A stretch of 37,048 nt of DNA from NCBI RefSeq assembly GCF_000747095.1, contig NZ_JQGL01000116.1:1-37048 (forward strand), written 5' to 3'. A program made the translations under genes and the position numbers. Position 1 is the first letter of the stretch, and each line of letters starts with the position of its first letter. The notes beneath the pieces are model-generated. The model saw only the letters and a program-made list of their open reading frames with translations. It was not told the DNA's origin and did not search any database. Positions 18,353 to 22,174 of this stretch are shown in pieces. The DNA is from Sulfuricurvum sp. MLSB (GTDB lineage: Bacteria; Campylobacterota; Campylobacteria; Campylobacterales; Sulfurimonadaceae).

Positions 18353-19546
18353 TTAATTTATACCATACCAGCTTACGCAAATCTTTGTCCCTTTATTCTC
18401 CTCTGATTCGACGGTAATCTTTAAGTGATAATCCTTGGCGATCATCGCGACGATGTTCAGTCCGATTCCGAATCCTCCGACGCTTTTGTCGGCCCGTGTA
18501 TAGCGCTCGAAAATCCGCTCGATCATCGCATCGGGAATACCGATCCCGTTGTCTTCGATGCACAGCAGCCCGGGACGAAGCGTAATATTGATCGTTCCTC
18601 CCATCCGATTATACTTGATCGCATTCGAGAGAAGGTTGTCGATGAGACGGGTGGCTTTGGTCGCATCGATGAGATACGAGATATGCGGGGCAATGTCGAG
18701 GGTAAGTAAAATCTGTTTTTGTTCGATCCGATGGCGAAAATACTCCAGTCGTTCGTGCAGCAGCATACTCAAATCCAGAAGGGTGTCGCGGACGGCAAGA
18801 TCGTGATTGAGAATCAAGTAGGTGAGATCATCATACAGCGTCGAAATGGTGCGGGAAGCGATTTCGATCCGGCCAAGTTTCTTCTGCACCGAAGGGGGCA
18901 ATTCGGATTCTTTGAGGGCTTCGATGTTGGTCAGTATTGCGCTCACCGGCGTATTCAGTTCATGGGTTGTGTCTTTGATAAAATCATCCAGCAGGGTAAT
19001 GGCGTCGTTCATCGGCCGTAGAAACATGCGAGAGAGAGTAAACCCGATGAGGGCGAAGAGGATAAAAAGCCCCGTACCGAAGAGAAGCGCGTTGATAAGC
19101 GTTTGTTCCCGCCACAGTTCGTCGTCGCGGGTTTCGAATACGAGATAATATTCTCCAAGCCCATAGGGGGATAGGGGAATCACGAGATGGATGAAGCCGT
19201 TATGCAGGGCGATATTTTCATCGAAACGCTGATGAGTTTGGCGAAGATTTCCGACAAGCAAATCTTTGTCATACCCGTACAGTGCCGTTCTGTAGGCGAG
19301 ATCTTTCGGAAATGTTTGGAGGTCGTGTCCGCTTTCGAGCCATGTTTTAAGGCGGGGAACATAGCTTTCAGATTGGAGCTGCATTGCCAGACGATGGGAG
19401 GAGAGCATCTGTCCTTTCATCGATTCGTAATACAGCGTCCCGATAAGGGTGAGGATCAAGACGCTCATTACCCCATACAGGGCTAAAAACGATCGGAGAG
19501 TGCGGTATTTAGCGAAATTGATACCCGAGGCGTTTGTGGCTGACAA
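18353..19546 (-). CDS. Sensor histidine kinase, TTG start
   Basis: Membrane sensor kinase of 397 residues. It has two membrane helices (FLALYGVMSVLILTLIG near 20-40 and LLFGTGLFILFALIGF near 155-175) with a periplasmic sensor of about 110 residues between them. Then come the H-box TTHELNTPV with phospho-acceptor His195, N-box DNLLSNAIKYN, DNGIGIP and GGFGIGLNIV. No ATG exists near the expected N-terminus. TTG 19546, with AAAGGA 5 bases upstream, is the best start and lies 38 bases inside the regulator gene. It pairs with that regulator. The sensed signal is unknown; the co-encoded NhaC suggests Na+ or pH as one option. Confidence 0.93.
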   Translation of the reverse strand: MSATNASGINFAKYRTLRSFLALYGVMSVLILTLIGTLYYESMKGQMLSSHRLAMQLQSESYVPRLKTWLESGHDLQTFPKDLAYRTALYGYDKDLLVGNLRQTHQRFDENIALHNGFIHLVIPLSPYGLGEYYLVFETRDDELWREQTLINALLFGTGLFILFALIGFTLSRMFLRPMNDAITLLDDFIKDTTHELNTPVSAILTNIEALKESELPPSVQKKLGRIEIASRTISTLYDDLTYLILNHDLAVRDTLLDLSMLLHERLEYFRHRIEQKQILLTLDIAPHISYLIDATKATRLIDNLLSNAIKYNRMGGTINITLRPGLLCIEDNGIGIPDAMIERIFERYTRADKSVGGFGIGLNIVAMIAKDYHLKITVESEENKGTKICVSWYGIN

Positions 19547-20174
19547 TTCGATCCTTTCCGAGCAATTTGCGCAGCGTTTTGATGTAGGTGCGCAGGCTTC
19601 CGTCGCTGGGAGTTTCGTCATAGTCCCAGAGATGTTCCATGATCACTTCATGTGGCAGCAGTTCGTTTTTGTGCTGGATGAAGAGTTTGAGCAGCTTATG
19701 CTCTTTGAGCTGAAGGCTCTGTTCAACCCCGTCGCTAAGGAGGAGTTGATTGTCGACATCGTAGGTAATTCCTCCGCCTAGATCGATCGTTTCGGTCGGA
19801 TTGTGAAAGAAATTGCGTTTGAGAATCGTCTGAACCCGCAGCAGAAGCTCTTTGAGTTCGAACGGTTTGCGCAGATAGTCGTCTCCGCCGCTTTCAAACC
19901 CCTTTTCCAGATCGTTCATCGCGTTGCGGGACGTGATAAAAACGGCCGGCGTCGCGTTACCGCCGTTTCGGGCTTCTTTCAGGAGTGAAAAACCGTCTCC
20001 GCCGGGAACGTTCACATCCAGAAGCAGCAGGTCGAATTTTTGTTCGAACAGAGCGTCTTCGGCACTTGCCGCATCGTAAACGCGGACGACCTCAAAGCCG
20101 TGTTCTTCAAGGTACTCACTGACACTCTCCGAGAGGTTCGGATCGTCTTCGAGCAGCAGCAATCTGGCTTTCAT
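19509..20174 (-). CDS. OmpR/PhoB-family response regulator
   Basis: DNA-binding response regulator of 221 residues. The receiver domain has acidic residues EDD at 9-11, phospho-acceptor Asp53 in LLLLDVNVPGGDG, the switch Ser/Thr in FITSRN and Lys in LRKPF. The C-terminal winged-helix domain has EHKLLKLFIQHK and SDGSLRTYIKTLRKLLG. The start ATG 20174 overlaps the nhaC stop as ATGA, and its 3' end overlaps the kinase start, so translation of antiporter, regulator and kinase is linked. Members of this family bind direct repeats with 11-base period; one such repeat is in this window at 16693-16712. Confidence 0.95.
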   Translation of the reverse strand: MKARLLLLEDDPNLSESVSEYLEEHGFEVVRVYDAASAEDALFEQKFDLLLLDVNVPGGDGFSLLKEARNGGNATPAVFITSRNAMNDLEKGFESGGDDYLRKPFELKELLLRVQTILKRNFFHNPTETIDLGGGITYDVDNQLLLSDGVEQSLQLKEHKLLKLFIQHKNELLPHEVIMEHLWDYDETPSDGSLRTYIKTLRKLLGKDRIVSHKRLGYQFR

Positions 20175-21541
20175 GAGAAGATTCCGACAAGGATAAACAG
20201 CAGCAACGCCATCGCGGCGGAAATCAGGGCATACGGGAGCTGCGTTTTGGTGTGCTCGGCTACGTCGCATCCCGATGCCATCGCCGAGATGATCGTCGTA
20301 TCGGAGATCGGAGAGCAGTGGTCTCCGAACACGCCGCCCGAGATGACCGCCCCCATTACGAGCGCGACCGGCGCGTCGAGTGCGACGGCCAGCGGTACGG
20401 CAATCGGGAGCATAATACTGAATGTTCCCCAGCTTGTCCCCGTAGCAAAAGCGATGATGCCCCCGAGAACGAAGATCGCTGCGGCAAGATATTGGGGCGG
20501 GAGATAGTCACCGACGAACGATGCGAGGTAGTTGCCTACTTCCATATCCGAACATACCCCCCCGATGGCAAAGGCAAACAGGAGGATCGAGGCGATCGGA
20601 ACCATTGATCGCGCTCCGGAGAGCGCAGCTTTGAAAAACTCGCTCGTGCTCATGGCATTTTTGGAGCGGTAGTAGATCCACATCAGTATGAGCGTCAGGG
20701 AGAGGGTATAAAAAATCGAGCTTGATCCCGATCCTTTGAGAATGTTGCCGCCGCCGGTGAGGATCATAAAGAGGATCACTCCGCCGATCATCCACACAAT
20801 CGGCCAGACAAAAAAGCCCACGGAACCGTTGGCATCGGCAAACGCTTCGGAAGGCTTATGGACGATAGCGCTGCGCATGGGGCCGATATCAATTTCGTAC
20901 CACACCGCCAGGAAGGTGACGATCAAAGCCATATAGGCGTAAAAATTAAAAGCGATCGACTGAAGAAGCCAGACGGCGCTCTCGCCGCTGATGAGACCCG
21001 CGGCAATCTGCCCCCCGATGAGACCCAGCAGCAGTGCTCCCCATCCGTTAAGCGTGATGATCGAGCATACCGGTGCCGAGGTCGAATCGCATACGAAAGC
21101 GAGTTTGGCGCGGCTGATGCCGTAACGGTCGCAAAAGGGCCTTCCGATAGCACCGGCTACGAGCGACGTGATGGAAGACTCTATGAAAATAACGGTGCCC
21201 GCGATAAAACTGGGAATCAGTGCCCCCCTTTTCGATTTCACCCATGTCCGTTTGATGCTCAGCTCGTGTACCAGTCCGTTGACGCCGCCGCTACGCTCGA
21301 TTAGGAGCATGACCGATCCCACCATAACGGCAAATGCGAGCGTTTTAAGGACCCATGCCTCCTGCAAAAGGGTACTGAAACGCTCCGTTGCGAGTATGAG
21401 TGCGTCAAGAGGTTGGAAATCGGCGATGATCACTTCTCCTACGAACACGGCGGCCGCAAGCGCGAGAAAAACAGAACGGCTTAAAAGCGCCAGTACAATA
21501 GCTACAAACGGGGGGAGAAGCCCTAAAATTCCGTATTCGAT
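20171..21541 (-). CDS. nhaC: NhaC-family Na+/H+ antiporter, apparent non-canonical start
   Basis: Polytopic inner-membrane antiporter expected to exchange Na+ (or another solute) for H+. Motifs include IPSFIAGTVIFIESSITSL, CDSTSAPVCSIITLNGWG, FATGTSWGTFSIMLPI and GGVFGDHCSPISDTTIIS, all typical of NhaC. The first usual start codon is GTG 21448, but recognisable family sequence continues upstream in frame (EYGILGLLPPFVAIVLAL), which would supply the first helix. No ATG, GTG or TTG exists in that stretch. The coordinate uses ATC 21541, which aligns with the usual Met-Glu/Asp-Tyr-Gly start and has AAAGGA 5 bases upstream; ATT 21547 is another option. The GNAT stop overlaps this ribosome-binding site. 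Product 456 residues from ATC. Confidence 0.85.
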   Translation of the reverse strand: MEYGILGLLPPFVAIVLALLSRSVFLALAAAVFVGEVIIADFQPLDALILATERFSTLLQEAWVLKTLAFAVMVGSVMLLIERSGGVNGLVHELSIKRTWVKSKRGALIPSFIAGTVIFIESSITSLVAGAIGRPFCDRYGISRAKLAFVCDSTSAPVCSIITLNGWGALLLGLIGGQIAAGLISGESAVWLLQSIAFNFYAYMALIVTFLAVWYEIDIGPMRSAIVHKPSEAFADANGSVGFFVWPIVWMIGGVILFMILTGGGNILKGSGSSSIFYTLSLTLILMWIYYRSKNAMSTSEFFKAALSGARSMVPIASILLFAFAIGGVCSDMEVGNYLASFVGDYLPPQYLAAAIFVLGGIIAFATGTSWGTFSIMLPIAVPLAVALDAPVALVMGAVISGGVFGDHCSPISDTTIISAMASGCDVAEHTKTQLPYALISAAMALLLFILVGIFS

Positions 21542-21550
21542 GAAAATCCT

Positions 21551-22174
21551 TTAGAGTGCCAGCTGCAGCCGCATGATTCCGACTCGTTCAAACTGTTCTT
21601 TGTAATATTCGCTCCGTTTTTCGTCGATGATATCGAAGCCCAGTTTTTTGTAGATCATTTCGGCCTCAACTGAGCCGATTTCGATGGAGGTCTGTACTTT
21701 GCGGTACCCTTTGAGACGGGCCGTAAGCATACTTTTTCCGATTAGTTCTTTGTAAACGTCAATGGTTTTGAAATCGGGTTTGACCATCAAAAAATCGAGA
21801 ACGTAGGTTTTATTGTCGACGTCCCCCTCGCACAGTAGATACGCGGCAATCCGTTCATGATAGCTTTCGTCAAAGCCGATCTCTTCGAGTGCTTTGGAAA
21901 AAATTTCATGTGTTGCAATTCGCGGTTCGTAACCGCAGATTACCCCGACCTTTTCAGAACCGGAGAGGGCAATGAAAAAATTGGAGATGTGGCAATAGCA
22001 TTTTGTGGGCGTAAGAGCCAGCTCCCTGAGATGTTCAAGAAGTGTTTTTTCGTCTGAAGTATTGAATACCAAATCGAAAAGGCCTATTTTTTTCCCTGCC
22101 CTGGAACTCTCCAGAAGCGCTTGGGCAACAATCTCAATATCTGCCTCGGACGCTTTACGAACGGTAACCGCCAT
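21551..22174 (-). CDS. GNAT-family N-acetyltransferase
   Basis: The 207-residue protein has the GNAT layout: VTVRKASEADIEIVAQALLE at the start, a middle sheet (FFIALSGSEKVGVICGYEP), and a C-terminal acetyl-CoA-binding half with YVLDFLMVKPDF, GIGK-like LIGKSMLTARLKGYRKVQTSIEIG and YKKLGFDIIDEKRSEYYK. The usual Q/RxxGxG/A loop is replaced by ELIGKSM. Substrate unknown. AGGAG is 8 bases before the ATG. It heads the operon with nhaC and the two-component genes; its TAA stop is part of the ribosome-binding site region of nhaC. Divergent from the L,D-transpeptidase-like gene. Confidence 0.85.
   Translation of the reverse strand: MAVTVRKASEADIEIVAQALLESSRAGKKIGLFDLVFNTSDEKTLLEHLRELALTPTKCYCHISNFFIALSGSEKVGVICGYEPRIATHEIFSKALEEIGFDESYHERIAAYLLCEGDVDNKTYVLDFLMVKPDFKTIDVYKELIGKSMLTARLKGYRKVQTSIEIGSVEAEMIYKKLGFDIIDEKRSEYYKEQFERVGIMRLQLAL

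Follow-up and report, generated by a model that had tools for sequence, protein, structure and literature searches.

A conserved AUC/AUA codon as the predicted start of an NhaC-type antiporter gene in Sulfuricurvum and its family

The antiporter locus

The window (the whole stretch of DNA analysed here, 37,048 nt of contig NZ_JQGL01000116.1 of Sulfuricurvum sp. MLSB, from a draft assembly in 148 contigs) carries on its minus strand, at 20171–21541, a coding sequence for a putative Na+/H+ antiporter of 456 amino acids, ending in TGA (20173–20171). The protein passes Pfam PF03553 (Na_H_antiporter) with 172 bits against a cut-off of 23, but stays below the cut-off of the NCBIfam NhaC equivalog TIGR00931 (62.9 vs. 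370 bits); the name nhaC, given to the gene in a first-pass annotation of this DNA, is thus approximate, and the protein is called NhaC-type here. A search for solved structures of sequence relatives found none at 0.01.

Directly upstream lies a GNAT-like gene (21551–22174, minus strand), whose stop precedes the antiporter start by 9 nt. Its GNAT label, from the same annotation, corresponds to a sub-threshold RimI match (21.7 bits vs. a cut-off of 86.4), and a Pfam search at 0.001 gave no match for this ORF. On the other side is a response regulator gene (19509–20174, minus strand), the ATG of which overlaps the antiporter stop (ATGA); a homolog is found downstream in 20 of the 31 loci with at least 400 nt of downstream sequence. 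Response regulator and histidine kinase genes together occupy positions 18353–20174 of the window. No RNA element was matched by Rfam between 18000 and 24000 at an E value of 1.

Read along the minus strand, the GNAT-like ORF ends with CTC TAA (TAA at 21553–21551), followed by AGG ATT TTC and then ATC (21541–21539), all in a single frame. The Shine-Dalgarno (SD) sequence AAAGGA (21552–21547) overlaps the stop of the upstream gene and is separated from the ATC by 5 nt. Between the TAA and a GTG at 21448–21446 (codon 32, counted from the ATC) there are no canonical start codons (ATG, GTG, or TTG) in the antiporter frame. The first-pass annotation had described this arrangement, including the in-frame upstream stop and the spacing of AAAGGA, and was correct throughout. 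It had offered three readings: that expression is limited by a rare AUC or AUU start, that the antiporter lacks its first helix, or that a single base is wrong.

The start codon within the genus

The Sulfuricurvum-like genus (g1) is represented by 41 of the 100 genomes searched. Seven had no match and one had a C-terminal fragment only; the remaining 33 genomes yielded 34 antiporter copies whose start could be read. Of these, 23 have ATC and 11 have ATA at the aligned position, while ATG, GTG, TTG, and ATT were found there in none of the 34. This comparison of sister strains, proposed earlier as a check, bears directly on the possibility of a single-base sequencing or assembly error. A draft assembly leaves room for one, but the 32 other genus genomes share an ATC or ATA here, and the chance of such an error seems close to negligible.

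The homology claimed upstream of the GTG is real: sister antiporter proteins align from residue 1 counted at the ATC, 31 codons earlier, so that homology extends to this codon. The GTG is the earliest codon acceptable to gene finders, and initiation there would produce an antiporter lacking its first helix. However, codons 2–31 evolve as coding sequence, with a mean pairwise diversity among the genus copies of 0.209, 0.074, and 0.549 at the first, second, and third positions, a pattern resembling that of the remainder of the gene. The position of the first downstream canonical codon is moreover not conserved, ranging from codon 5 to codon 73 across the genus. A start at the GTG is accordingly very improbable, and the idea of a protein without its first helix is not borne out.

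The SD sequence is also maintained: with few exceptions, the 34 genus copies have AAGG at −11 to −8. The conserved codon class, the SD sequence, and the frame leading up to the codon can all be read directly. An alternative ATT (21547–21545) overlaps the SD sequence, and sister species have ATC or other codons at that place, which leaves AUC as the start candidate. In one genus copy an in-frame TTG occurs 8 codons upstream of the start.

Distribution in the Sulfurimonadaceae and beyond

The wider family search covered 151 genomes, of which 125 matched; 121 were tallied, as 122 copies, after G032, G123, G154, and G177 had been set aside as fragmentary, broken, or distantly paralogous, and seven order-level loci (among L048–L057) were kept outside the tally. 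The start codon was placed by hand in 18 of the 122, never more than 4 codons away from the first aligned one. The start codons are ATA in 74 copies, ATC in 33, GTG in 6, ATG in 5, and TTG in 4. AUU, the second of the two codons suggested for the window, occurs in none of the 122, so that the site is best described as AUC/AUA. The 15 copies with canonical starts are found in groups g3, g5, g6, g11, g12, and g2, two of the 15 belonging to g2.

In 63 of the 107 AUA/AUC copies a stop occurs no more than three codons upstream of the start. An in-frame canonical codon lies upstream in 6, and a second AUH codon within two codons upstream in 12, so that a few start assignments are uncertain; the least certain are those of L055, L046, and L296. 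Outside the family, 80 loci were sampled from the genome collection, of which 13 proved family-like. In each of the other 67 a canonical codon falls in the interval from 15 codons before to 3 codons after the aligned site, and 12 have ATG precisely at it, indicating that this site is the ancestral or common start of the protein.

In these sulfur-oxidizing bacteria, a rare candidate start is therefore present in all 34 copies from the genus, and in 107 of the 122 from the family. As a prediction from sequence comparison, the conserved near-cognate initiation site on this transporter gene appears real, and it looks like a retained means of making little antiporter rather than a sequencing error.

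The third base of the codon

A quick tree was calculated from 121 family rows and seven outgroups (L035 was excluded for its length). On this tree, codon 1 has switched between ATA and ATC at least 14 times, and between the ATA/ATC class and canonical codons at least 7 times. For comparison, ten isoleucine columns of the antiporter gene require 27–46 changes each, and ATT fills 416 of their 1157 cells (36%); it likewise makes up 35% of the other isoleucine codons of the antiporter in the genus. Frequent exchange between ATA and ATC without ATT, set against these ATT-rich columns, implies that codon 1 is not an internal isoleucine codon, and argues that at the antiporter start a third-base U, like G, is probably selected against.

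This bears on a further reading, in which the antiporter is an extension of the upstream protein, reached by read-through or frameshift, and the ATC is an internal isoleucine codon. In the window the upstream stop does share the antiporter frame. Across the family, however, the frame relation of the two genes varies (the three frames are represented by 62, 34, and 23 copies), and two genus copies (L028 and L032) have a further TAG immediately 5′ of the ATC. Together with the unusual third base, these observations make read-through or frameshift barely credible. All the readings without a rare start (sequencing error, initiation at the GTG, read-through, and frameshift) were thus rejected, on the grounds of the relatives, the constraint on codons 2–31, and the varying frame.

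SD strength and RNA structure

SD strength was expressed as the predicted duplex energy with a 12-base 16S rRNA tail. The genus antiporter copies have a median of −5.9 kcal/mol, similar to the −5.6 kcal/mol of 399 genes from one genus genome. Over the family, a core SD motif at initiation distance is present in 98 of the 107 AUA/AUC copies and absent in nine. The median for these 107 is −4.2 kcal/mol, vs. −1.7 kcal/mol for the 15 canonical copies (rank test p 1e-6, ignoring kinship; the tree provides three supported independent pairs). Canonical-start lineages thus tend to have weak SD sequences, a tendency that loses significance when relatedness is taken into account. A weak SD sequence beside a canonical start would be expected if low initiation strength is the feature being kept; with three supported independent pairs, such a trade-off was dropped as proof.

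Folding around the start is slightly stronger than usual (median −9.1 vs. −6.4 kcal/mol), and this could also reduce antiporter yield. A search for conserved RNA structure at the start with RNAalifold, over the 34 genus copies, gave a consensus of just −2.1 kcal/mol.

Other candidate rare starts in the clade

Genes with a long run free of canonical codons were sought in 620 kb of one genus genome, where 309 and 198 coding frames were ranked by the coding signal ahead of their first canonical codon; genes of this kind are all that the survey detects, and it is not a full count. The antiporter gene ranked third of 309, and ftsK first.

The conserved start of the genus ftsK (found in L176:14848-17127; L188–L217 and L218) is ATT in 29 of 30 loci and ATA in one; the window's genome has ATT. 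In three of the 30, the frame contains a canonical codon farther 5′. In other groups, an AUH codon occupies the position in 4 of 8, and in 10 of 28 readable loci, while 14 of these 28 have a TTG one codon later. By this comparison ftsK is probably a second conserved AUH start, and near-cognate starts appear to recur in the clade with a third base particular to each gene. The AUU starts of ftsK would make the near-cognate device a wider one, not specific to the antiporter.

A gene resembling those for VWA-domain proteins (L234:10293-11450, minus strand; L238–L253) was also considered, but its start is not uniformly kept: 5 of 16 genus orthologs have ATC or ATT, and 11 have an ATG five codons upstream. 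Autoregulation of infC by an AUH start was sought in the clade and was not found, a TTG candidate being located after the upstream stop and ahead of the conserved region in all 25 loci parsed (of 30 fetched, L058–L087, the window's genome included). In one genome (G030, L177:11679 region) a coding frame is broken at a run of nine Cs, possibly reflecting phase variation or a broken gene.

Proposed initiation at AUC/AUA

The conservation of the codon class and its SD sequence suggests that translation of the antiporter begins with fMet at AUC (AUA in sister species), where the SD sequence overlapping the upstream stop would position the ribosome. The third base would mismatch the CAU anticodon of the initiator tRNA, and discrimination by IF3 would make initiation inefficient. 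A normal SD sequence combined with a poor codon would then give low synthesis of a membrane antiporter whose excess is probably harmful or costly to the cell. We consider it reasonably probable that AUC/AUA is such an SD-supported near-cognate start, presumably discriminated by IF3, and that it keeps antiporter synthesis low. The rare start put forward in the first-pass annotation thus stands as far as the codon is concerned; initiation there, the low yield, the role of IF3 as discriminator, and the need for little protein are what we infer from it. A similar case is pcnB of E. coli, where an inefficient AUU start reportedly limits a protein harmful in excess, as may hold for the antiporter; unlike the latter's, the pcnB start is not known to be conserved throughout a family.

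Termination-reinitiation is an alternative: ribosomes finishing the upstream gene might restart at the nearby AUC or AUA, with no need for AUG. A GNAT-like homolog does lie directly upstream of the antiporter in 119 of the 122 family copies, and in 28 of the 34 genus copies its stop lies 9–11 nt before the start, overlapping the SD sequence. However, the six other genus copies, with gaps of 21–127 nt between stop and start, still have ATC or ATA, and a lineage with a tight arrangement (g11, six copies), in which the start overlaps the upstream stop by 4 nt (GTGA-type), uses GTG with a weak SD sequence. The AUU start of ftsK in G030, moreover, lies by our reading of the sequence downstream of a terminator-like hairpin and a TATAAT box, and excess IF3 is reported to lower reinitiation, though less so with an SD sequence (excerpts of PMC2268962). 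Translational coupling to the upstream gene is plausible, but the rare codon does not require it, and reinitiation as its explanation is rather unlikely.

For an SD-supported start at AUC/AUA, the role proposed for IF3 has a biochemical parallel: in a reconstituted system, non-Watson-Crick third bases, including AUU with the CAU anticodon, are described as disfavored as IF3 rises (excerpts of PMC10158994). By analogy, the antiporter codon may lower initiation in an IF3-dependent manner. Close natural cases are the infC genes, which start with AUU in E. coli, ATC in Streptomyces, and AUA in Staphylococcus aureus (as given in parts of PMC13009471 and PMC5472188). Like the antiporter, they combine an SD sequence with a conserved near-cognate AUH start; in infC, however, this closes an IF3 feedback loop, whereas here infC has TTG and the odd start is on the antiporter.

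In S. aureus, AUA and AUU starts are reported to be conserved, and to give about 10% of the AUG yield in reporters (excerpts of PMC13009471). Those of ccpN (AUA) and cvfC1 (AUU) are likewise backed by SD sequences, but these are extended and the starts experimentally proven, and the genes are different ones, while the antiporter has an ordinary SD sequence and a start predicted from sequence. The sigR gene of Streptomyces has a GTC start described as conserved (32 of 34 GTC, two GTT), repressed by IF3, and missed by annotation (parts of PMC5472188). It resembles the antiporter in having a conserved rare start, but differs from AUG at the first and third bases, the antiporter start at the third only. 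A search of one open-access library found no paper dealing with such a start, whether for Sulfuricurvum, Sulfurimonas, or nhaC.

Two features stand out: the exclusion of AUU at the antiporter start and the parallel case of ftsK. A single AUH start class accounts for 107 of the 122 copies of this transporter gene in the family, with a third base that changes often yet avoids U and G. Conceivably the third base is itself a signal, each gene having its own near-cognate codon (AUA or AUC, never AUU, in the antiporter; AUU in ftsK), such that graded mispairing with the initiator tRNA produces graded IF3-dependent output; the antiporter start might even serve to sense ions, if start discrimination shifted with cytoplasmic Na+ or pH and more were then made of the pump that corrects them. 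We regard this as distinctly improbable.

Gene finders limited to ATG, GTG, and TTG would shorten the antiporter. A single gene here offers a natural series of AUA, AUC, AUG, GUG, and UUG starts together with their respective SD strengths, which makes selection on initiation rate directly testable. In three Sulfurovum-like loci (L105, L107, and L112), a TATAAT box lies 6 nt 5′ of the antiporter ATG, as if the mRNA were leaderless.
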